Origin: Nautiliaceae bacterium
Lineage (GTDB): Bacteria > Campylobacterota > Campylobacteria > Campylobacterales > Nautiliaceae
NCBI GenBank assembly: GCA_027011225.1
Contig: JALVAK010000143.1
Coordinates: 1 to 57,941 of the forward strand
Direction of reading: 5' to 3'
DNA length: 57,941 bases
This document shows, in pieces, positions 4,171 through 22,570 of this stretch (position 1 is the first letter of the stretch; the number at the start of each line of letters is the position of its first letter). The notes beneath the pieces were generated by a model, which was given only the letters and a program-made list of their open reading frames with translations, did not search any database and was not told where the DNA came from. The position numbers were made by a program, and so were the translations under genes.

Positions 4171-5430
4171 TTACTTAAAAATACCTTTTTCCATATGATA
4201 TTCGCACTTATTCATATCCATTTTAAGCTCATTCTCCCCAAATAATCTTCTTATAACTGATACAAAAATATCAACTTCTGCACTATCTGCCATTTTTCTA
4301 AGAGTCATATTTGGATGATGCAAAAATCTTTTAAACGCATTATGAAGCACTTTTTCCACTTCTTCTTCAAGCTCTGCTGGAATATAATGTTTTTTTACTG
4401 CATTTTTTAAAGCTCTTTTTGCACATTCATGAGCTTTATCTTGTAAAAATTTAATAACTGGCTCAACAGATACTGATTGAAGATATTTTTCAAACTCTTT
4501 TACACATTTTTTAATAACTTCATTTGCAATTTCTACTTCTTTTTTTCTTTTTTCTAAATTCTTCTCACTTATCTCTTTTAAATCATCCACTTTTATAATT
4601 TTTATATTTTCATCTTCAATATCTTCAATATCGCTAGGAATTGCTAAATCAAACCAAAGTCTTTTAAAATTCCTAGGTTTAATAAAGTCTTTTTTTATAA
4701 CAGCACAAGGAGCAGATGTTGCAGAAAAAAGTAGTCTATAATTATTAATAAGTTTTGGTAAAGCATCTAGAGGATGAACATCAATATTAACTTCATCTCC
4801 TAGCTCCTCTTTTAGAGCAATTGCATTTTCAATAGTTCTATTTACTAAAATTATATTTACACCATCTTTTATTAAATTTTTACAAACAATTCTAGCTGTA
4901 TCACCAACACCAACCACCACGGCAGAATATCCGCTCAAATCTCCTAATTCTTCTTTTGCTTTTCTTACAGCAATACTTGCTACGCTTACAGGCTCAGATG
5001 AGATTTGAGTTTGATTTCTAATTTTTTTAGCACATTTAAAAGAAAAATGTATAAGTCTTGTTAAATCTTTGCCTATAAAATGCTTCTCATAAGCTTCCAT
5101 AAAAGCTTCTTTTAGCTGTCCTGTAATTTGAGTCTCTCCTACTACCATAGAATCAAGAGAAGCTGCTACTTTAAATATATGCTCAACTGCATCCATTCCT
5201 TCATAAAGCTCTGCTTTTAAAAACTCTTTTGGAGAGACTACCTTATAAAACACTTTATCATAAAGCTCATTTAAATCTCTTTTTTTATTAAAAATTACTT
5301 CAATTCTATTACATGTTTGAAGATATAACACTTCTTTAAACTCAGCAAAATCTTCTAATTTCAAATCTGAGAGCTTACTTCTAAGCACAACATCTGAATT
5401 TCTATAGTTAAAACTTATTACAAAATACAT
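4171..5430 (-). CDS. hemA: Glutamyl-tRNA reductase
   Basis: LQTCNRIEVIF, VGETQITGQLKEA, GVGDTARIVCKNL motifs. Confidence 0.95.
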   Translation of the reverse strand: MYFVISFNYRNSDVVLRSKLSDLKLEDFAEFKEVLYLQTCNRIEVIFNKKRDLNELYDKVFYKVVSPKEFLKAELYEGMDAVEHIFKVAASLDSMVVGETQITGQLKEAFMEAYEKHFIGKDLTRLIHFSFKCAKKIRNQTQISSEPVSVASIAVRKAKEELGDLSGYSAVVVGVGDTARIVCKNLIKDGVNIILVNRTIENAIALKEELGDEVNIDVHPLDALPKLINNYRLLFSATSAPCAVIKKDFIKPRNFKRLWFDLAIPSDIEDIEDENIKIIKVDDLKEISEKNLEKRKKEVEIANEVIKKCVKEFEKYLQSVSVEPVIKFLQDKAHECAKRALKNAVKKHYIPAELEEEVEKVLHNAFKRFLHHPNMTLRKMADSAEVDIFVSVIRRLFGENELKMDMNKCEYHMEKGIFK

Positions 5431-8911: not shown

Positions 8912-9472
8912 TTATTCTTGAGATAAAGCTTCTAAAAGATTTGGGTGAGCAAAATGTGTCATAGTTTTATCATTATGACATCTAACACAGCTAACATCTT
9001 CTCCTGCTTTTTTAGGCTCCCAATAATATTTTTCATGAATTTGTTTAATATTTTCACTAAGCCCTATTGCACGCTCAGGCTCTTTTATACCCTCATGACA
9101 ATGTAAACACGCACTATCATATACATAATTTTCCATTTCATTAAAGTTTTCTTTAAAATCAACCATCTTTTTAAGACCAATATGAGCTAGAAAGTCTCTA
9201 GTACCACTAATACCTTTCATTACTAAATAACCAGCTAATGAATTATGAGGTAAATGACAATCGGTACAATGATGAGCCGCAAATCCTTGAGGGTTGTTTC
9301 CTCCATGCACACTATATTTAAAAGTCTCTCCCATTGGTTTCATTTCATGACAGCTCATACAAAATTCTGGCGTACCTGTTTTATCAACTGCAACTGCTGC
9401 AATATATGAAATACCAAGACCAATAATTACACCGCAAATAAGTGAGCCCCACAATACTTTTTTATTTGCCAT
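8912..9472 (-). CDS. NapC/NirT/NrfH-family membrane-anchored tetraheme cytochrome c
   Basis: N-terminal TM anchor plus four CxxCH (CMSCH, CTDCH, CLHCH, CVRCH). Confidence 0.88.
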   Translation of the reverse strand: MANKKVLWGSLICGVIIGLGISYIAAVAVDKTGTPEFCMSCHEMKPMGETFKYSVHGGNNPQGFAAHHCTDCHLPHNSLAGYLVMKGISGTRDFLAHIGLKKMVDFKENFNEMENYVYDSACLHCHEGIKEPERAIGLSENIKQIHEKYYWEPKKAGEDVSCVRCHNDKTMTHFAHPNLLEALSQE

Positions 9473-9508
9473 ACCTTACCTTTTTTGATTTGATTATAAG
9501 TAAAATTA

Positions 9509-9524
9509 GTGCTTAAAAAGTGCT
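9509..9524 (-). promoter_or_regulatory. Tandem direct repeat site S1 (AGCACTTTTTAAGCAC)
   Basis: Two GCAC half-sites 11 bp apart, upstream of TATAAT (9498-9493) of the tetraheme cytochrome. Confidence 0.5.
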
Positions 9525-9526
9525 TT

Positions 9527-11146
9527 TTAAAGCTCTATTACAAAAACTGCACCATTTTTAGAGTTATATGCATAAAGCTTGCCATTGAAATGCTGATTTA
9601 TAATAACTTTACTCATATAAAGCCCTATTCCTGTACCTTGAGACTGAAATTTAGTAGTAAAATATGGCTCAAAAATTTTATCTTTAATCTCTTCAGGAAT
9701 TCCTCCTGCATTATCTTCTATTTCTATTTTTTTACCATCGATTCTTATCCAAATTTTTCTATTTTTGATATCTCTTTCTTTAAGCGCATCTATAGCATTG
9801 TTTATAATATTTAAAATAACTTGAGAAAATTCACTTTTATATCCTGTAATTGGCTCAGTTTTTATAAATTCAAGCTCTACTTCAACTTTATTTTGCTTAA
9901 GTCTTCCTTCAATAAGTTTAAGAGCTTCTTCAATAATTTCTTTTGGACAAAATTCAACTTTTTTTGTATCTCTTTTAAAAAAATTTGTAAAATCATCAAT
10001 TGTTTGAGACATATATTGGATTTGAGTGTTTGCTTGCTCCTTAAATTTTTCTATAAATTCAGGAGTTAGTTTATTTTTGCTTGCTGCAAGCTCAAAGTTT
10101 TGAATTAAAAGAGATAGTCTTGTTAGAGGGTGTCTCCATTGATGAGCAATATTTCCAAGCATCTCACCAAGAGCTGCGAGTTTACTCTGAGCAATAAGGA
10201 GCTGCTCTTTTTCTTGTCTTTTTTCAATCTCTTCTTTTACTCTTTTATCAAGCTCTTCATAAAAAGAATAAAGAGGTTTTGAGAAAAATATTCCAAGTGG
10301 CACGGCAAAAAGTATAGAAATTCCTATCATAATTAGTGTTAAAGTTTTTGAAATTTCATTAGTTTTATTAATTAAATTTTTATTTTGAATAAACACTACT
10401 TTTATTTTATCACTTAACGATTTTACATATATCTCATCCGTAACAAATCCGTTTTGAGTATTTAATATTTTTTTATTTAGAAAAAAGTTAAACACATCAT
10501 TTAAATTTTTCTCATGATACAAATCAGAATATAATATGTTTCCATGCTTATCTATTATAATAAAATGATAAAGGTTATTATTTCTAAATAAATCCTTTAT
10601 AAATGACTTAACTTCAATAAACCCTGGATATTTTTCTATTTTTACAGGAGAAAAAGCAATAAATTCAATTCCTTTATCTTTAAAATTTTCTTTAAAAAAT
10701 AGCTCTTTATCACTTTTTAAGTTTTGTACTTTTAAAGAAATATTTGTATTATTACAATAAATACTATTCTCAACTTTCTCGCAAGATATAATATTTTTAC
10801 CATACCTATTAAAATAATTAATCTGTTTTAATTCATTATTTGCATAAAGCATAGTTTTAAAAACAGATTTTAATATTTCAGTATTTGGAGTAAAAGCAGA
10901 ATTAAAAATATCATTTTTAGCTAAAGCTAAGGTAGTATTTTTTATAATATTTTCTTTTGTTTTGTAATCTTTATAAATATTCTCTGCAATAATTTTAATT
11001 TTATCTTCAAACTCTTTAGTTGTAAGCTGTGTAAAAAGATAAATAGAAGTATAAGTAGTAATAACAATAATAACAAATGCAAAAATAACAAATGCAAAAA
11101 TCAAATCAAATTTAAAATCATTTGAGTTTTTCAATCTTATATCCAA
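9527..11146 (-). CDS. Sensor histidine kinase with periplasmic Cache-like sensor domain
   Basis: Two TM segments, LAALGEMLGNIAHQWRHPLTRLSL H-box, NIINNAIDAL and DNAGGIPEEI N/G boxes. Confidence 0.93.
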   Translation of the reverse strand: MDIRLKNSNDFKFDLIFAFVIFAFVIIVITTYTSIYLFTQLTTKEFEDKIKIIAENIYKDYKTKENIIKNTTLALAKNDIFNSAFTPNTEILKSVFKTMLYANNELKQINYFNRYGKNIISCEKVENSIYCNNTNISLKVQNLKSDKELFFKENFKDKGIEFIAFSPVKIEKYPGFIEVKSFIKDLFRNNNLYHFIIIDKHGNILYSDLYHEKNLNDVFNFFLNKKILNTQNGFVTDEIYVKSLSDKIKVVFIQNKNLINKTNEISKTLTLIMIGISILFAVPLGIFFSKPLYSFYEELDKRVKEEIEKRQEKEQLLIAQSKLAALGEMLGNIAHQWRHPLTRLSLLIQNFELAASKNKLTPEFIEKFKEQANTQIQYMSQTIDDFTNFFKRDTKKVEFCPKEIIEEALKLIEGRLKQNKVEVELEFIKTEPITGYKSEFSQVILNIINNAIDALKERDIKNRKIWIRIDGKKIEIEDNAGGIPEEIKDKIFEPYFTTKFQSQGTGIGLYMSKVIINQHFNGKLYAYNSKNGAVFVIEL

Positions 11147-11768
11147 CTCCTCTTACATTTTTAATAAAATTTTCTTTTAATTTGCTTCTTAATTTTTTAA
11201 CTTGAGTTCTAATTGTATTGTTGCATATATCTTTTCCATCCCATACATAATCTTTAAGTTTATCAAGCTCTACTACTTGACCAATATTTTTAATAAGCAT
11301 CTCAAGAAAATATTTTTCATTTTGAGTTAAATCTACTTCTTCATCTTTATAAAAAAGCTTTAATTTATCTAAATCAAATTTATAATTATCTGTAATTTTA
11401 ATCTCATTAGTATTTTTAAATACAAGTCTTTTAATTCTTAGCTCAAGCTCTTTTAAATCAAATGGTTTTTTAATGTAATCAGCCGCACCTAAATCAAATG
11501 CTTCTTCTATATGATTTATATCAGAATAAGCGGTAATAAAAATAGCTGGCACATCTTTTGCATAATTTTTAAGCTCTTTATAAAACTCATATCCATTCAT
11601 CTCAGGCATATTAATATCAATCAAATAAACATCATAATGCTCTGGATAAATCTCCTCTAATGCTTTTAGAGGAGAAGAGTAATAATCAACCCTATTATCT
11701 TGAAGCTCTAAATAATTTTTTATAGATTCTCCAATAAACTCATCATCTTCAACTAATAATATTCTCAT
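11118..11768 (-). CDS. OmpR/PhoB-family response regulator
   Basis: Receiver domain (LLVEDDEFIGES, YLIDINMPEMNGYEF, KKPFDLKEL) plus winged helix (LTQNEKYFLEMLI...TIRTQVKKLRSKL...VRGVGYKIE). Confidence 0.93.
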   Translation of the reverse strand: MRILLVEDDEFIGESIKNYLELQDNRVDYYSSPLKALEEIYPEHYDVYLIDINMPEMNGYEFYKELKNYAKDVPAIFITAYSDINHIEEAFDLGAADYIKKPFDLKELELRIKRLVFKNTNEIKITDNYKFDLDKLKLFYKDEEVDLTQNEKYFLEMLIKNIGQVVELDKLKDYVWDGKDICNNTIRTQVKKLRSKLKENFIKNVRGVGYKIEKLK

Positions 11769-13931: not shown

Positions 13932-14070
13932 ATACCCTCCATAAAGACCTACCTGAGTTGATAAGCCTTTATGAAGGTTTCTTTCCAACTCAGGAGGCTT
14001 AATTTTTTCAAATTAAACCCTATCGGCTATAACTCCATAGCTAAACCTTAGGAGATATAGCTCGAAACCT
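13929..14070 (-). ncRNA. Structured modA 5' leader, candidate Moco-type (molybdenum cofactor) riboswitch
   Basis: Transcribed strand contains GCCTCCTGAGTTGGAAAGAAACCTTCATAAAGGCTTATCAACTCAGGTAGG: 9-bp perfect stem CCTGAGTTG/CAACTCAGG (13952-13960 with 13986-13994), inner CCTT/AAGG stem, GCTAT/ATAGC hairpin (14026-14030 with 14037-14041), TTAATT/AATTAA hairpin, and a 5' CUCC able to pair with the modA SD GGAG. Confidence 0.62.
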
Positions 14071-14076
14071 AAAAGA

Positions 14077-14105
14077 ATTTTAACTCAACTTTTATTTAAA
14101 GTCAA
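14077..14105 (-). promoter_or_regulatory. Predicted sigma70 promoter for modABC-RR-HK (TTGACT-N17-TAAAAT)
   Basis: On minus strand TTGACT(14105-14100), 17-bp spacer, TAAAAT(14082-14077); transcript would start about 14070, at the beginning of the structured leader. Confidence 0.65.
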
Positions 14106-14107
14106 TT

Positions 14108-14123
14108 GTGCCTAATAAGTGCC
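14108..14123 (-). promoter_or_regulatory. Tandem direct repeat site S2 (GGCACTTATTAGGCAC)
   Basis: Same 11-bp-period GCAC repeats between modA and napA, abutting modA -35. Confidence 0.5.
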
Positions 14124-14209
14124 TTTAATCTTAAATTTTTCTTAAAAATATAGCTTTATAAAAAGAAAAGATGTATCATAATATTGTTAAAATTGCTAAA
14201 GGAGTATCA

Positions 14210-17026
14210 ATGAACAGAAGAGATTTTTTAAAAACCACAGCAGCAGTTGCAGCAGCTAGTGCAGCAGGGCTAAGTATTCCAGAAGATGCAAAAGCAGCTT
14301 CAGAAAATACTCAAGCTAATTGGCAATGGGATAAAGCTGTTTGTAGATTTTGTGGTACTGGATGTGGTATTATGATTGCTACAAAAGGTAATAAAGTTGT
14401 AGCAGTAAAAGGTGACCCAGAAAATCCAGTTAATAGAGGAATTAACTGTATTAAAGGTTATTTTAACGCAAAAATTATGTATGGTGCAGATAGATTAACT
14501 CAACCGCTACTTAGACTAAACGATAAAGGAGAATTTGATAAAAATGCTCCATTTAGACCAGTTAGCTGGAAAAGAGCGTTTGATGAGATGGAGAGACAAT
14601 TTAAAAAATACTATAACCAATACGGACCAACAGCTGTTGGAATTTTTGGCTCAGGTCAATATACAATTCAAGAAGGGTATGCAGCAGTAAAATTAGTAAA
14701 AGCTGGATGGAGAAGTAATAACATAGACCCAAATGCAAGACATTGTATGGCTAGTGCGGTTGTTGGGTTTTATCAAACATTTGGTATTGATGAGCCAAGT
14801 GGATGTTATGATGATATAGAGCTTACTGATACAGTTATTACTTGGGGTGCTAATATGGCAGAGATGCATCCAATTCTTTGGTCAAGAGTAAGTGATGCAA
14901 AATTAAATAATCCTGATAAATATGTAGTTGTAAACCTTTCAACTTACAAAAATAGATGCTCTAACCTTGCTGATATGGAAATAATTTTTAGACCTAATAC
15001 TGACCTTGCAATTATGAACTATATCGCAAGAGAAATTATTAAAAGAAATGCTGTAAATTGGGATTTTGTAAAAAAACACACTGTATTTGCAACAGGCTTT
15101 GCTGATATCGGATATGGTATGAGAGACCCAAATAACCCTCATGTAACACCAAAAGAAAAAGATACAGTAGAAAAACAAGTTGCAAAAGTTGTTACTGAAG
15201 AAGAAGCAATAGCTCTTAGCCCTATTGGCAAATGGAAAGCTGGCGATGAGATGAAAATGACTCATGCAAAAGGTAAAGGTCCATTTAAACACTGGCAAAT
15301 TAGCTTTGAAGAGTTTAAAAAAGGTGTTGAGCCTTATACACTTGATTATGTAGCAAAAATTGCTAAAGGTGATAAAAACGAATCACTTGAGAGCTTTAAA
15401 AGAAAACTTCAAAGATTAGCAGACTTATATTGCGACCCAAATAGAAAAATAGTATCTTTTTGGACAATGGGATTTAACCAACATGTTAGAGGAAGCTGGG
15501 TAAATGAGCAAGCGTATATGCTACACTTACTTCTTGGAAAACAAGCTGAGCCTGGTAATGGAGCATTCTCTCTAACAGGTCAACCAAGTGCATGTGGTAC
15601 TGCAAGAGAAGTTGGTACATTTGCTCACAGACTTCCAGCAGACTTGCTTGTAGCAAATCCAAAACACAGAAAAATTGCTGAAAAACTTTGGAAAGTACCA
15701 CATGGTACAATTAATCCAAAAGTTGGTAACCATTTTCTTAAAATGATGAGAGAGATTGAAGATGGAAATGTAAAATGGGTATGGGTTCAAGTAAATAACC
15801 CATGGCAAAATACTGCAAACGCAAATCACTGGCTAAAAGCTGCAAGAGAGATGGATAACTTTATAGTAGTTAGTGAATGTTATCCAGGAGTTAGTGCAAG
15901 AGTTGCAGACTTAATCTTGCCAATTGCAATGATTTATGAAAAATGGGGAGCATATGGAAATGCTGAGAGAAGAACTCAACATTGGAGACAACAAGTAGTA
16001 GCTCCAGGAATTGCAATGCCAGATTTGTGGACAATAACAGAATTTGCAAAAAGATTTAAATTAAAAGAAGTATGGAAAGAGTGGAAACTTCCTGATGGAA
16101 CAGTTTTACCAAATGTATTAGAAGAAGCAAAAGCTATGGGTTATAGCGAAGATGATACACTATTTGATGTATTATTCAATAGAGAAGAATATCGCAAAAA
16201 TTTCCCATGGCCAGACCCAATAGCTAAAAACCCACAAACTGGAAAACTACATCCAAATACTGAAGCTGAGGGTGATTTTAGAAATGTTGTAGGAACTGAT
16301 GGTAAAGTATTTAAAGGATATGGATTCTTTATCCAAAAAGCACTTTGGGAAGAGTATAGAAAATTTGGTCTTGGACATGGACATGACTTAGCTGATTTTG
16401 ATACTTATCATAAAGTTAGAGGTCTAAGATGGCCAGTAGTTAACGGACATGAAACTAAATGGAGATTTAATGTAGATTATGACCCATATGCAAGAAAATA
16501 TGCAAAACCTGGTGAAAAATTTGCATTTTATGGACCACTTCTAAAAGCAATTCCAAAAGGTGATTTAAAAGGTCCTAAAACTAAGAAAAAATATCCGCTT
16601 CCAAACAAAGCAAAAATTTTCTGGAGACCATTTATGGTGCATCCTGAAGACCCTAAATATGATGATAAAGGATACAACTTCTGGCTATGTACAGGAAGGG
16701 TACTTGAGCATTGGCACACAGGTACAATGACTATGAGAGTTCCAGAGCTTTATAGAGCAATGCCTGAAGCACTTTGTTATATGAACCCAGAAGATGCAAA
16801 AGAGCTTGGTCTTAATAGATTTGATTTGGTTGTAATTGAATCTAGAAGAGGTAAAGTTAAAGCAAGAATTGAAACAAGAGGTAGAAATAAACCTCCAAGA
16901 GGGCTTGTAATGGTTCCTTGGTTTGATGAAAAAATACTTATCAATAAATGTACACTTGATGCAACTTGTCCATTAAGTAAAGAGACTGATTACAAAAAAG
17001 CAGCAGTTAAAATCTATAAAGCGTAG
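14210..17026 (+). CDS. napA: Periplasmic nitrate reductase catalytic subunit (Tat substrate); start reassigned to MNRRDFLK
   Basis: Twin-arginine [58 protein letters not shown] [4Fe-4S]/MGD binding; SD aaaggag upstream. Confidence 0.97.
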
Positions 17027-17034
17027 GAGATAAT

Positions 17035-17850
17035 TTGGATAGAAGAAATTTCTTAGCAAATTTAATTCAACTCTCAGCAGCAGCAACTGCTGCTGGTGCA
17101 GTTGTTTCTGGATTTGCCGAAGAAAATAAATATAAGCCACTTACACTTAGACCACCAGGTGCATTGCCAGAAGAAGAGTTTATTAAAACATGTATTAGAT
17201 GTGGTTTGTGTGTTGAGGCATGCAAAAATAGAGAAAATAAAATGATTATTAATGGAAAAGAAATTGATACTCTTTTCCTTGCAGCACCAGGAGATAAAGC
17301 ACCAATTGGAACACCTTATTTTATACCAAGGACAGGTCCATGTTTTATGTGTGATGACATACCTTGTCTTTTTGCCTGTCCTACAGGTGCATTAACTCCA
17401 GATATGTGCAAAAATGAAAAAGGTGAAGTTTCTATTGATTATGCAAAAATGGGTGTTGCGGTAATTGACCCTAGCAGTTGTATTGCTTATTGGGGGCTTC
17501 AGTGTACTGCATGTTATAGAGCATGTCCTGAGATGGATAAGGCTATTACAATTGAATGGAAACAAAATGAAAGAACAGGAAAACATGCATATAGAATTCC
17601 CGTTGTTCATGAAGAATATTGCACGGGATGCGGCATGTGTGAAATGGCATGCGTTACTGAAAAACCAGCTATAAAAGTTTTCCCAAGAGAAGTTTGTCTT
17701 GGAAAAGCAGGAGATAGATACGTCAAAGGATGGGATATAAAAGACCAACAAAGAGTAAAAAAAGCAAGCACTAAAACAACAACCAAAACCCCTTGGAGCG
17801 AAAAAAATCCGCTTCAAAACTTAAATGAGGGAGTAAATTGGGATGAATAA
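17035..17850 (+). CDS. napG: Ferredoxin-type protein NapG (TTG start)
   Basis: Tat motif RRNFLANL, four [4Fe-4S] Cys clusters; SD TAGGAG upstream of TTG. Confidence 0.93.
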   Translation: MDRRNFLANLIQLSAAATAAGAVVSGFAEENKYKPLTLRPPGALPEEEFIKTCIRCGLCVEACKNRENKMIINGKEIDTLFLAAPGDKAPIGTPYFIPRTGPCFMCDDIPCLFACPTGALTPDMCKNEKGEVSIDYAKMGVAVIDPSSCIAYWGLQCTACYRACPEMDKAITIEWKQNERTGKHAYRIPVVHEEYCTGCGMCEMACVTEKPAIKVFPREVCLGKAGDRYVKGWDIKDQQRVKKASTKTTTKTPWSEKNPLQNLNEGVNWDE

Positions 17851-18685
17851 AATATTTAAAAACAAATATCTCATCCTAAGACGCCTTAGTCAATTTACAA
17901 TTTTATTTTTGTATTTTGCAGCAAATTATTGGGGTTGGAAAATATTAATGGGAAATTTAAGCTTTTCAAAATTATTTGATACTATTCCCTTAACTGACCC
18001 TTATGCATTTTTACAAATGCTTTTTGCAGGAGCTGTAATTAGCACGAATTTAATTATAGGCGTGTTAGTTGTAGTTTTATTCTATGGGATAATTGGAGGA
18101 AGAGCTTATTGTAGCTGGGTGTGTCCAGTAAACTTAATTACTGATTTAGCAGCATGGGTTAGAAGAAAAACTAATCATGAAAAAGATAACTTAGTAAGTG
18201 CAATTAAAATTAAAAAATTTAGATATGCATTTTTAGTTGCTATGCTTATATTCTCAGCCATTATAGGTGCTGCGGCGTATGAATTTATAAATCCTATTGG
18301 ATTTTTTACAAGAGCAGTAGCATTTAGTATGGGATTTGCATGGGTGTGGCTTTTGGTTATTTTTATTTTTGATGCATTTGTCCTTAAAAACGGATGGTGT
18401 GGGCATATCTGCCCAGTAGGTGCTACATATGCCCTAATAGGTGCTAAAAATATAATCCGTGTATATCATGAAAAAGAAAAATGCACTAATTGTGGTAATT
18501 GTTTTATTGTTTGTCCAGAAAACCAAGTTTTAGCACCTGTTATTAACAAAAAAAGCGATTTCATATCAGGAATAGAATGTACAAATTGTGGTAGATGTAT
18601 TGAAGTATGTGAAGATGATGCACTACATTTTTCAATCAGAAATTTTATAAAAGGAGAAAAAAATGAAAAAAATAGCTCTAATTAG
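17843..18685 (+). CDS. napH: Ferredoxin-type membrane quinol dehydrogenase NapH
   Basis: TM segments plus CSWVCPVNLITD and C-terminal CTNCGNCFIVCP / CTNCGRCIEVC. Confidence 0.93.
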   Translation: MNKIFKNKYLILRRLSQFTILFLYFAANYWGWKILMGNLSFSKLFDTIPLTDPYAFLQMLFAGAVISTNLIIGVLVVVLFYGIIGGRAYCSWVCPVNLITDLAAWVRRKTNHEKDNLVSAIKIKKFRYAFLVAMLIFSAIIGAAAYEFINPIGFFTRAVAFSMGFAWVWLLVIFIFDAFVLKNGWCGHICPVGATYALIGAKNIIRVYHEKEKCTNCGNCFIVCPENQVLAPVINKKSDFISGIECTNCGRCIEVCEDDALHFSIRNFIKGEKNEKNSSN

Positions 18686-19160
18686 TGCAGCAGCTGCATT
18701 AATAGTTTTTAGTGGATGTAGTTTAAACAACTCATCTAATAAAGTTTCAAACAAAAAAGTTGAAGTTACAGGAATTAGAAAAGCAAGCCTTGATAAAGGC
18801 TCTCAAAACTTACCAGTTGTAACATACAACAATCAAGCGCCAATTCCTGGGAAAGTAAAACCATATAAAAAATCATATGTTACTGCACCTCCTATGATTC
18901 CTCATAGTGTAGAGGGAATGTTGCCAATTACAGCAAAAAGAAATATGTGTTTAAATTGTCACTTACCTCAAAATGCGAAAGCTCTTGGTGTAACTCCTAT
19001 GCCAGAAGACCACTTTATAGATAATTTTGAAGGGGGCAAAAAAGTTAGAAGAGTTGCAGGAAGTAGATATTTTTGTACAACATGTCACGTACCACAAGCA
19101 AACTTAAACCCTGTAATTGAAAATAAATTTGAATCACTAAAAGCAAATGCAGGATTTTAA
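18663..19160 (+). CDS. napB: Diheme cytochrome NapB with lipobox-like signal
   Basis: CLNCH and CTTCH heme sites; N-terminus MKKIALISAAAALIVFSGCS. Confidence 0.92.
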   Translation: MKKIALISAAAALIVFSGCSLNNSSNKVSNKKVEVTGIRKASLDKGSQNLPVVTYNNQAPIPGKVKPYKKSYVTAPPMIPHSVEGMLPITAKRNMCLNCHLPQNAKALGVTPMPEDHFIDNFEGGKKVRRVAGSRYFCTTCHVPQANLNPVIENKFESLKANAGF

Positions 19161-19636
19161 TGATAGATAAGAAAAAAAGAAACCTTTTTAGGAGAGCTTC
19201 TTCTCCTTTTAAATCTTTTATTTATCCTCCGTATTTTGAAAAAAAAGAAAATTTTTTAGAATGCATTGAATGTGAGAGTAAAGATTGTGTAAATGCATGT
19301 CCTGAAAATATTATAGAAATTGAAAATAATATTCCTGTAATTAAATTTGGGATAAACGGATGTACATTTTGTGATGAATGTGCAACCGCTTGTCCTAATG
19401 GAGTGCTGGATATAAAGCATAAGAAAAATAAACTAAATGCTGAATTTATTATAAATCCTAAAAATTGTCTTGCATGGAATCAAACAATGTGTTTTTCTTG
19501 CCAAGATATCTGTGAAGAAAATGCTATAATATATAAAGGAATGTTCAATCCTGTAATTGATTTAGATAAATGCAGTGCATGCGGATTTTGTATAAGTGTA
19601 TGCCCTACATATGCAATTGATATAAAAATAATCTAA
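19160..19636 (+). CDS. napF: Ferredoxin-type protein NapF
   Basis: Multiple [4Fe-4S] motifs CIECESKDCVNACP, CTFCDECATACP, CSACGFCISVCP. Confidence 0.87.
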   Translation: MIDKKKRNLFRRASSPFKSFIYPPYFEKKENFLECIECESKDCVNACPENIIEIENNIPVIKFGINGCTFCDECATACPNGVLDIKHKKNKLNAEFIINPKNCLAWNQTMCFSCQDICEENAIIYKGMFNPVIDLDKCSACGFCISVCPTYAIDIKII

Positions 19637-19646
19637 AGGCTAAAAA

Positions 19647-20600
19647 ATGAAAAAAATATTTCTTTTTTTTATAAGTGCAATTTTTGTATTTGCGATTACT
19701 GATATAAAACCTTACAAACTTTATAAATATGATTACTACATATCAAAAATTGCCTTTAATAAAAAGTTACTTGCAATAGGGCTTGAAAATGGCACTATTT
19801 TGATAAATGAATTTAGTACAAATAAAAATATAGATAAAATAACTCTTCCAAAAATTCATGATTTTATGGGAGAGCTGATTCCTATGCCAATTTATTCAAT
19901 TGATATCTCTCCTGATGGAAAAAATATTTTTATTTTAACTGAAGGCGAAGATGCAAAAAGAGAAATGTTTATTTATAATCTAAAAAACAAAAAGCTAACT
20001 AATGTGTATGAAACAAAAGAGACTTTAATGAAAGCTAACTATATCAATAACACACAAATCTTTATAGCATTACTTAGTGATGAGGTAGAGCTTTTTGATT
20101 TAAATACAAAAAAAATTATTTACAAAAATCAAGTAGGAAACTATGTATTTTCTACATATGCTCTAAATGAAAAAAAATCACTTGCCGCAATTGGTGATGA
20201 GAGTGGAAGCATAAAAATTGTAGATGTTAAAAGTGGTAAAAGAATAAAAAAAATTCAAGGCTTTAACAAAGATAAAACAATTTCACTAGATTTTGTGAAA
20301 AATTATGTAATAAATGGAAGTAGCGATAAAAGAGTAGGAGTTTATGATATAAAAACTAAAAATGCAATTGTTACTCTAAAAGCAAAATTTTTACCATACG
20401 CTAGTGCAATTAGCCCTGATGTAAAACAATTTGCTATTCAATATGATGAAAAATATAATATTAAAGTTTTTGATATGAATAAAAAGCCTCTATTTTTATT
20501 AAAAGGTCACAAAATGCCACTTAGCGATATGAAATATTTAAATAAAAATACAATAATAAGCTACTCACCAAGTGAAATAATAATATGGAAGGAGAAATAA
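19647..20600 (+). CDS. napL: NapL-like periplasmic beta-propeller protein
   Basis: Signal peptide plus WD/PQQ-like repeats; position between napF and napD as in Campylobacterota nap clusters. Confidence 0.82.
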   Translation: MKKIFLFFISAIFVFAITDIKPYKLYKYDYYISKIAFNKKLLAIGLENGTILINEFSTNKNIDKITLPKIHDFMGELIPMPIYSIDISPDGKNIFILTEGEDAKREMFIYNLKNKKLTNVYETKETLMKANYINNTQIFIALLSDEVELFDLNTKKIIYKNQVGNYVFSTYALNEKKSLAAIGDESGSIKIVDVKSGKRIKKIQGFNKDKTISLDFVKNYVINGSSDKRVGVYDIKTKNAIVTLKAKFLPYASAISPDVKQFAIQYDEKYNIKVFDMNKKPLFLLKGHKMPLSDMKYLNKNTIISYSPSEIIIWKEK

Positions 20601-20944
20601 TGAATATTTCAAGCATAATTGTTAGAACAAGACCTGAAAATTATGACGCAGTATGGATGAACTTACAAGAGAGTGAGCTATGTGAAGTGCATTTTGGAGA
20701 TAAACAAAAAGGTGTCATTATAGTTACAATTGAAGGAGAGTGTGTAGAAGAAGAAATTGAAAAATTAAGACAAATAGAAGAGATGCCATTTATTATAAGT
20801 GCAGATATGCATATGAGTTATTGTGAAGAAGAGCTTGATAAAATGATGGAAGATATTGATGCAAATAAAACAGTTGAAGAGATAAATAAAGATAAAAAAG
20901 CTGAAGAAATTACTTATTTTGGCTCTCTTAAAGGAAAATATTAA
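20600..20944 (+). CDS. napD: NapD chaperone
   Basis: MNISSIIVRTRPENYDAVWMNLQESELCEVHF...GVIIVTIEG; SD aaggag; start reassigned from 20585. Confidence 0.9.
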   Translation: MNISSIIVRTRPENYDAVWMNLQESELCEVHFGDKQKGVIIVTIEGECVEEEIEKLRQIEEMPFIISADMHMSYCEEELDKMMEDIDANKTVEEINKDKKAEEITYFGSLKGKY

Positions 20945-20968
20945 AAATTTTTTAAAAATTATACTTTT

Positions 20969-20984
20969 GGCACTTTTGAGACAC
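20969..20984 (+). promoter_or_regulatory. Tandem direct repeat site S3 (GGCACTTTTGAGACAC)
   Basis: Same pattern, 13/16 identity with S2, immediately upstream of an AT-rich -10-like TATAAAAT before hao. Confidence 0.45.
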
Positions 20985-21022
20985 GTTTATTTTATAAAAT
21001 TTTAAAGAGATAGTCTCAAAAG
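20973..21022 (+). repeat. 10-bp perfect inverted repeat CTTTTGAGAC...GTCTCAAAAG, 3' arm overlapping the hao SD
   Basis: Arms at 20973-20982 and 21013-21022; SD AAAAGGAG spans 21018-21025, ATG at 21032. Confidence 0.7.
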
Positions 21023-21031
21023 GAGTGAAAA

Positions 21032-22570
21032 ATGAAAAAAGCACTAACAGCAGGTCTAAGCGTAGCAGCAATCACATCTGTAGCATTTGCAGCTAACAGC
21101 TTAGATTCTAACCCAAATTACAAAAAACTTAAAAACTTTCACCCAAAAGGTGTAAGTAACGACCAATGTTTAATGTGTCACAAAACTACTGACCCTGGAA
21201 TTGTAGCTGATTGGCAACATTCTAAACACGCAAAAGCAGGTGTAGGCTGTGTTGAATGTCACGTAGTACCAAAAGACTATCCAACTGCATTCAAAAATCA
21301 CCCAATGCAAGGTGCTAACTGGACTGTTCAAATTGCTGTTTCATCTGTAACTTGTGCAAAATGTCACGCAAAAGAAGTAACTGAATATCTAAACTCTGGA
21401 CACGCAAGAGGTGCAGCTCAATGGCTTGCAGTAAATGGAACTAAACATGGATATTTAATGACTAAACTTTCATATTATTATGAAAGTTTAAAAGGTAGAA
21501 ATCCAACTCTAAATGGCGTACCTGGCGATAAAATGGCAAAAGGTATTAGAAGAGATGGTGAAGTATTTTATGCAAATGAAAAAAATCCAAAAATTGCTGA
21601 TTTAAACGTAGCAAACATTTGTATCCAATGTCACGGAACAACTATAAAACTTGATAAAAATGGTGTTCCAGACCCAAGAACTTGGCCAAATGATGGTATT
21701 GCTTCATTATATCCAGATGGAGGAGTTGGAAACTGTCTAAGCTGTCACAGCAGACATAAATTCAGCGCAGCTGAAGCTAGACATCCAGCAAGCTGTGGTA
21801 ACTGTCACTTAGGACCAGACCATCCAATGAAAGAAGTTTTTGAATCAAGTGTACATGGACACATCTTTGATACAAATGAAGAAGATTATAAATTCGATAC
21901 AGGTGAGCAAATCCCTGGTAAAACTCTAAGAGCTGCTACATGTTTTACATGTCATATGGCAGCAATTAATGGTCTTAAATCAACTCACAACGTATCACTT
22001 AGACTTAAATGGAATCTTTGGGCACCAGATAGCTTCTTAAGAACAGGTGGATATGAAACAGCTGGTTGGGCATTCTGGAAAGGTGGAGGAAAAGTTATTG
22101 GTGGCAAAACTGTAATTAGAGGTAATCCAAAAGCTGGTAATCCTGCAGGTCCAGAAGCAGCTAGAGCTGATATGAAAAAAGTTTGTATGACTTGTCACCA
22201 AGCTACATTTACAAACAATTATTTCCAAAGAGTAGATGCAGCTGTAAAAGTTTACAATGAATACAAAGCATTTGCTAATAAAATGATGAAAGATTTAAAA
22301 TCAAAAGGTTTAATTAAATCTGATGTATGGAGTGACCCATTCTTCAAACTATACTATTACCTATGGCATCATGAAGGAAGAAGATTTAGACATGGTGCAG
22401 CTATGGGAAGCCCAGATTATGCACATTGGCATGGAGTATTCCAAGTAATGCAAGATATTAGAGAAATGAAAGATATCTATGATTACAGAATGAAAATGTA
22501 CAAAAAATATAAAGACGCTAAAAAAGTTCTTGAAAATGAGCCTCCAATGCCAGTTGTTACTCACGAATAA
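21032..22570 (+). CDS. hao: Octaheme hydroxylamine oxidoreductase-like cytochrome c (epsilon-Hao type)
   Basis: Signal peptide and eight CxxCH (CLMCH, CVECH, CAKCH, CIQCH, CLSCH, CGNCH, CFTCH, CMTCH); C-terminal RRFRHGAAMGSPDYAHWHG. Confidence 0.92.
   Translation: MKKALTAGLSVAAITSVAFAANSLDSNPNYKKLKNFHPKGVSNDQCLMCHKTTDPGIVADWQHSKHAKAGVGCVECHVVPKDYPTAFKNHPMQGANWTVQIAVSSVTCAKCHAKEVTEYLNSGHARGAAQWLAVNGTKHGYLMTKLSYYYESLKGRNPTLNGVPGDKMAKGIRRDGEVFYANEKNPKIADLNVANICIQCHGTTIKLDKNGVPDPRTWPNDGIASLYPDGGVGNCLSCHSRHKFSAAEARHPASCGNCHLGPDHPMKEVFESSVHGHIFDTNEEDYKFDTGEQIPGKTLRAATCFTCHMAAINGLKSTHNVSLRLKWNLWAPDSFLRTGGYETAGWAFWKGGGKVIGGKTVIRGNPKAGNPAGPEAARADMKKVCMTCHQATFTNNYFQRVDAAVKVYNEYKAFANKMMKDLKSKGLIKSDVWSDPFFKLYYYLWHHEGRRFRHGAAMGSPDYAHWHGVFQVMQDIREMKDIYDYRMKMYKKYKDAKKVLENEPPMPVVTHE

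Follow-up and report, generated by a model that had tools for sequence, protein, structure and literature searches.

The 10-bp inverted repeat that precedes hao in a 57,941-nt contig of a Nautiliaceae bacterium (the window; Table 1) is best explained by an activator-dependent promoter. At a probability of roughly 0.82, its 5′ arm would lie in a PhoB-like tandem operator through which a two-component system encoded in the same cluster would co-activate hao, cycB and probably nap, the genes of reverse-HURM nitrate ammonification. Conservation, spacing, co-occurrence and synteny are observed, and from these we infer binding, activation and the start site. The preliminary description of this DNA is partly supported on the sequence comparisons given here: its headline, an RNA switch, appears not to hold, and its second promoter model does.

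On gene content, the cluster is the reverse-HURM nitrate-ammonification set as in Nautilia profundicola (PMC3701875, PMC2628731), the link between its genes and the published ones being one of homology. The minus strand carries modA-modB-modC, the genes for an OmpR-family response regulator and a histidine kinase, cycB, a thioredoxin-like gene and a cytochrome c assembly gene, with the two-component genes sitting between operator targets. When N. profundicola is grown on nitrate, haoA, cycB and napA rise 8.5-, 7.1- and 4.6-fold, and added ammonium significantly lowers haoA and cycB (PMC3701875). A literature search found no published regulator for the reverse-HURM pathway in Nautilia.

Table 1. 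Coordinates of the hao, cycB and nap/mod control regions and associated genes in the window.
Feature	Position	Strand	Basis or remark
cycB, NapC/NrfH-type tetraheme quinol dehydrogenase, HURM partner of hao	8912..9472	-	PF03264 E=1e-22
−10 TATAAT of cycB promoter	9493..9498	-	10 nt past operator
Putative operator before cycB, AGCACTTTTTAAGCAC	9509..9524	-	33.5 bits, top match in the window; 19/19 loci
Putative cognate sensor histidine kinase, periplasmic dCache-type sensor	9527..11146	-	PF00512/PF02518; structure model
OmpR/PhoB-family response regulator, proposed operator ligand	11118..11768	-	PF00072+PF00486; close orthologues where motif occurs
Moco (molybdenum/tungsten cofactor) riboswitch, mod leader	13962..14079	-	Rfam RF01055, 74.8 bits
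mod promoter, TTGACT (14100-14105), 17 nt, TAAAAT (14077-14082)	14077..14105	-	sequence; abuts riboswitch start
Putative operator in nap/mod intergenic region, GGCACTTATTAGGCAC	14108..14123	-	copy in 18/18 nap intergenic regions
nap operon (napA, G, H, B, F, L, D), upstream of hao, same strand	14171..20944	+	
Putative operator before hao, GGCACTTTTGAGACAC	20969..20984	+	two CAC half-sites 11 bp apart; includes 5′ arm; 21/21 orthologue leaders
5′ arm, CTTTTGAGAC	20973..20982	+	probably untranscribed operator DNA; upstream of conserved −10
−10 TAAAAT of hao promoter	20995..21000	+	exactly 10 nt past operator
Predicted hao mRNA 5′ end, local hairpin GAGA-TAG-TCTC	21007..21017	+	start ~21006-21007, placed from −10
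3′ arm, GTCTCAAAAG, overlapping Shine-Dalgarno AAAAGGAG (21018-21025)	21013..21022	+	sequence
hao (ATG at 21032), octaheme hydroxylamine-oxidoreductase-type cytochrome, reverse-HURM nitrite reductase	21032..22570	+	ORF; multihaem Pfam hits; role per PMC3701875

The two arms are perfect complements over 10 bp with a 30-nt spacer, the 3′ arm overlaps the hao Shine-Dalgarno, and two candidate −10 elements lie nearby, TATACT at 20960–20965 and TATAAA at 20993–20998; all of this is exactly as the preliminary description had it. The arm pair occurs once in its own genome (1.64 Mb searched). Within the window, 23 perfect 10-bp inverted repeats were found against 16.7 expected from shuffles (loop 3–60), and 3 with at least four G/C per arm against 0.9. 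Dinucleotide shuffling of the 87-nt hao leader yielded a 10-bp inverted repeat in 3.5% of cases, and one with at least four G/C in 0 of 3000. The repeat is real and moderately unusual, beyond ordinary A+T noise, and not extraordinary.

Orthologous hao leaders were taken from 19 of the 21 family genomes, including that of the window, and from two genomes of family f13; 20 were aligned, and that of genome G076 was read separately. The pattern used to locate the repeat in these leaders excluded the −10 sequence. In all 21, the 5′ arm is held within a conserved direct-repeat element, GGCACTTTTnnRACAC, with two CAC half-sites 11 bp apart, and the order GCACTTTTnnnnCAC (GCACTTTATTGACAC in one leader), exactly 10 nt, TAnAAT is preserved across both families. 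The −10 is followed by a leader of mostly 28–41 nt (52 nt in G076) and then the Shine-Dalgarno. Because the conserved TAnAAT and this short leader lie downstream of the operator, the 5′ arm appears to be promoter DNA upstream of the hao start site, most likely absent from the main RNA.

These comparisons bear on two promoter models in the preliminary description whose predictions are mutually exclusive. In the first, transcription would start at the 5′ arm from TATACT, and a 10-bp RNA hairpin would hide the Shine-Dalgarno until heat, a ligand or a protein released it; in the second, which the 21 leaders favor, the downstream −10 is used and the 5′ arm is untranscribed DNA within a direct repeat. 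The hairpin itself is predicted at −15.5 kcal/mol at 37 °C, and transcribing the operator would raise the cost of opening the Shine-Dalgarno from 1.2 kcal/mol, calculated from the predicted start, to 6.3 kcal/mol. However, TATACT is present only in the window among the 21 leaders, and since the −10 lies downstream of the 5′ arm in every one of them, the two arms would not share a primary transcript, read-through RNA excepted. The pairing that a Shine-Dalgarno-sequestering switch predicts, and which had been proposed as its test, is neither conserved nor covarying: the operator-leader stem has 10 bp in G000, G066 and G071, 9 in G072 and 4–8 in the rest (only 5 in G069), that is, 9–10 bp in 4 of 21. 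(The MAFFT leader alignment misplaces a CTC block in several rows, and stems were therefore compared row by row rather than by column.) A melting thermosensor, also suggested at the outset, is not favored in a moderate thermophile because the hairpin is predicted to survive at 55 °C, and an Rfam search of the window gave no match at hao, only the Moco riboswitch and tRNAs. With its 5′ arm already accounted for by the operator, an RNA switch is very improbable.

Part of the perfection of the hao repeat arises because two independently conserved elements, the operator CTTTT and the Shine-Dalgarno AAAAG, complement each other. They supply 5 of the 10 pairs of the stem, and the perfect repeat would thus consist of an operator (CTTTT...) partly complementary to AAAAGGAG plus five lineage-specific pairs. 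The matching 10-nt arms upstream of hao are mostly a by-product of operator and ribosome-binding site.

Other promoter and operator types were also considered. TTGGCAC resembles the −24 element of a sigma-54 promoter; no GC element is found at the right spacing, and the TAnAAT −10 is invariant instead. A CRP/FNR-type site, TTGA-N6-TCAA, is absent from the hao promoter.

The arms of a tiny hairpin at 21007–21017 are GAGA/TCTC, as in several relatives; G073 and G033 have GAGT/ACTC instead. The latter form fits a small in-transcript hairpin better than pairing with the operator, and the element is too short for a claim of function.

Upstream of cycB, the same kind of repeat, 10 nt and TATAAT (TACAAT once) were found in 19/19 regions. 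The operator holds a fixed position relative to the −10, in place of a −35, at hao and cycB, and does not do so at nap/mod. There, each of 18 loci has a copy in the interval from nap to mod or to the response-regulator gene, mostly reversed relative to nap. The window copy runs in the reversed orientation, tens of bases away from the likely nap −10; the G076 copy points toward nap, with TATAAT again 10 nt on. This operator probably serves nap, and/or mod plus the two-component genes; all are candidate targets, and the sign of control may be either. The window copy ends 2 bp upstream of the −35 of the mod promoter, a consensus promoter with the Moco riboswitch directly behind it; this arrangement may bring molybdate uptake, along with the two-component genes, under the proposed regulator as well.

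The window was scored with a matrix trained on relatives only, its own sites left out. Full promoter scores were 33.5 bits at cycB, 31.7 at hao and 9.3 at the nap/mod site, with 9.0 for the next match, the best outside the regulon; with the operator only, the cycB and hao sites scored 26.5 and 25.8 bits, nap/mod 21.3 and the next match 12.3. As full promoters, cycB and hao were thus the window's only strong matches. Genome-wide scans, which were pattern searches, covered 200 genomes of the order: the strict promoter pattern occurred in 18, all belonging to the window's own family (f1) or to f13, and the reversed-pattern control in none.

Looser genome matches of the operator were not used as evidence. 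Of five read in context, four fall within genes and one precedes a molybdopterin oxidoreductase gene. A near-perfect operator, GGCACTTTTTAAGCAC (G000:C43:19142-19157, minus strand), precedes a gene for a PhsA/PsrA-like molybdopterin oxidoreductase, which may belong to the regulon as well. G073 has an extra strict-pattern site (L168, 1017–1047), 10 nt before TAAAAT and upstream of a 96-codon small ORF, as well as four successive CAC half-sites, each 11 bp from the next, in the interval from nap to the response-regulator gene (L135, ~4957–4993, minus strand), which suggests oligomeric binding. In G060 (L033, C1 ~61–65 kb), the first hao is followed directly by a second, diverged copy, recovered in two pieces by tblastn and preceded by a degenerate operator-like sequence.

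The cluster encodes a regulator with receiver and winged-helix (Trans_reg_C) domains that co-occurs with the motif. Orthologues of 65–91% identity are present in 18 of the 20 other family genomes and of 67–71% in the two f13 genomes; the closest in twelve motif-free genomes reach at most 47%. In G012, hao and the regulator gene diverge from either side of the operator. At hao, cycB and nap/mod the half-sites are direct and 11 bp apart, the geometry of an OmpR/PhoB-type operator. Direct repeats of 11 bp are typical of OmpR-family winged-helix proteins, and CRP/FNR sites are inverted repeats. Given the association of motif and regulator, and an 11-bp tandem geometry known for PhoB-like proteins and for Sulfurospirillum RR2, the response regulator of the cluster probably binds the repeat, a putative assignment made by proximity, co-occurrence and geometry. 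The 11-nt tandem unit is that of the PHO box (PMC4415409), and in Sulfurospirillum an OmpR-type regulator recognizes CTATA repeats, separated by gaps of 6 nt, that cover the −35 (PMC7755780). Nitrate respiration in Wolinella is controlled by Nss regulators, which are of CRP/FNR type and may also exist in marine relatives (PMC6682613); the repeat could be bound by such a protein, the two-component link being fortuitous. However, the site has the direct-repeat style of the OmpR family rather than the inverted repeat of CRP/FNR, and it is found in genomes and loci carrying the cluster's response regulator, which makes binding by a different regulator quite unlikely.

The periplasmic domain of the kinase, in which Pfam alone detects almost nothing, was modeled with good confidence (pLDDT 86.6); its best Foldseek match (E 7e-9) is to a histidine-kinase sensor domain, and other matches are to dCache domains. 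NarX/NarQ-type sensing does not agree with these assignments, the regulator being OmpR-type and the sensor model matching dCache folds. A dCache fold does not single out nitrate as the ligand; as judged from the published induction of homologous genes, the stimulus is likely nitrate or one of its products.

In the promoter model that we favor, two tandem CAC half-sites (GGCACTTTTGA and GACAC...), 11 bp apart at about −37 to −23, would replace the −35 box and end exactly 10 nt before the TAnAAT −10. The response regulator, phosphorylated by the dCache histidine kinase, would dock head-to-tail on the repeat and bring in sigma-70 RNA polymerase. A promoter of this type would also drive cycB, and the upstream operator would serve nap (and/or mod and the two-component genes). 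With a common operator at hao, cycB and nap, the periplasmic steps from nitrate to nitrite to hydroxylamine would come on together. Transcripts of the hao promoter, beginning near 21006, would lack the 5′ arm and have an open Shine-Dalgarno.

Read-through transcripts from nap, if made, would carry both arms. In the lineage of the window, such RNA might fold the operator onto the hao Shine-Dalgarno, so that hao would be translated only from the RNA of its own promoter. The predicted opening cost in read-through RNA is 7.8 kcal/mol, against 1.2 for hao-promoter RNA; nap and hao are 88 nt apart, and inspection of the napD–hao gap by eye revealed no G+C-rich stem of an intrinsic terminator. The layout is that of phage T4 gene e, whose late promoter occupies the 5′ strand of an inhibitory hairpin that, in longer RNAs, would cover the ribosome-binding site (PMC3014915); the hao hairpin differs in not being conserved, and read-through here is hypothetical. 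Occlusion exceeds that of shuffled upstream sequence in the window and its two nearest relatives, G066 and G071 (z 2.4–4.1 for read-through), and, irregularly, in G069, G074 and G048. Over the 21 leaders, however, it is not conserved (mean z 0.5 from an operator start and 0.9 for read-through); G067, G073 and G033 have nap upstream and no occlusion, whereas G074 and G048 show occlusion without nap upstream. Insulation of hao from read-through is therefore unlikely, if somewhat less so than the other alternatives; were it true, one DNA segment would be both a protein-binding operator and an RNA lock.

Taken as an activator-dependent promoter, the hao and cycB control regions resemble PHO box/PhoB promoters in their tandem 11-nt units with a conserved core upstream of the −10, in their lack of a good −35 and in a regulator of the same structural family. 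They differ in the core (GCACTTT, not CTGTCAT), in their targets, which are nitrate-ammonification genes, and in the dCache kinase as sensor. The PCE-responsive RR2 of Sulfurospirillum (PMC7755780) is likewise an OmpR-family regulator of respiratory genes in Campylobacterota that acts at short direct repeats in 11-bp steps overlapping the −35, but its sequence is CTATW, and genes and inducer differ. NarXL/NarQP share the function, two-component control of nitrate respiration, whereas the present system pairs an OmpR-type regulator with a dCache-type sensor.

How nitrate control works in Campylobacterota is poorly understood, and the phylum reportedly lacks NarPL and comparable regulators (PMC6682613). 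For the reverse-HURM pathway in Nautiliaceae and one related family, the present analysis names a putative operator, a promoter architecture and a candidate two-component system. A tempting RNA-switch reading is corrected to a coincidence of operator and Shine-Dalgarno, and the value of the locus lies in the operator and the two-component regulon. With such an operator, the published joint induction of haoA, cycB and napA by nitrate would be simply explained.
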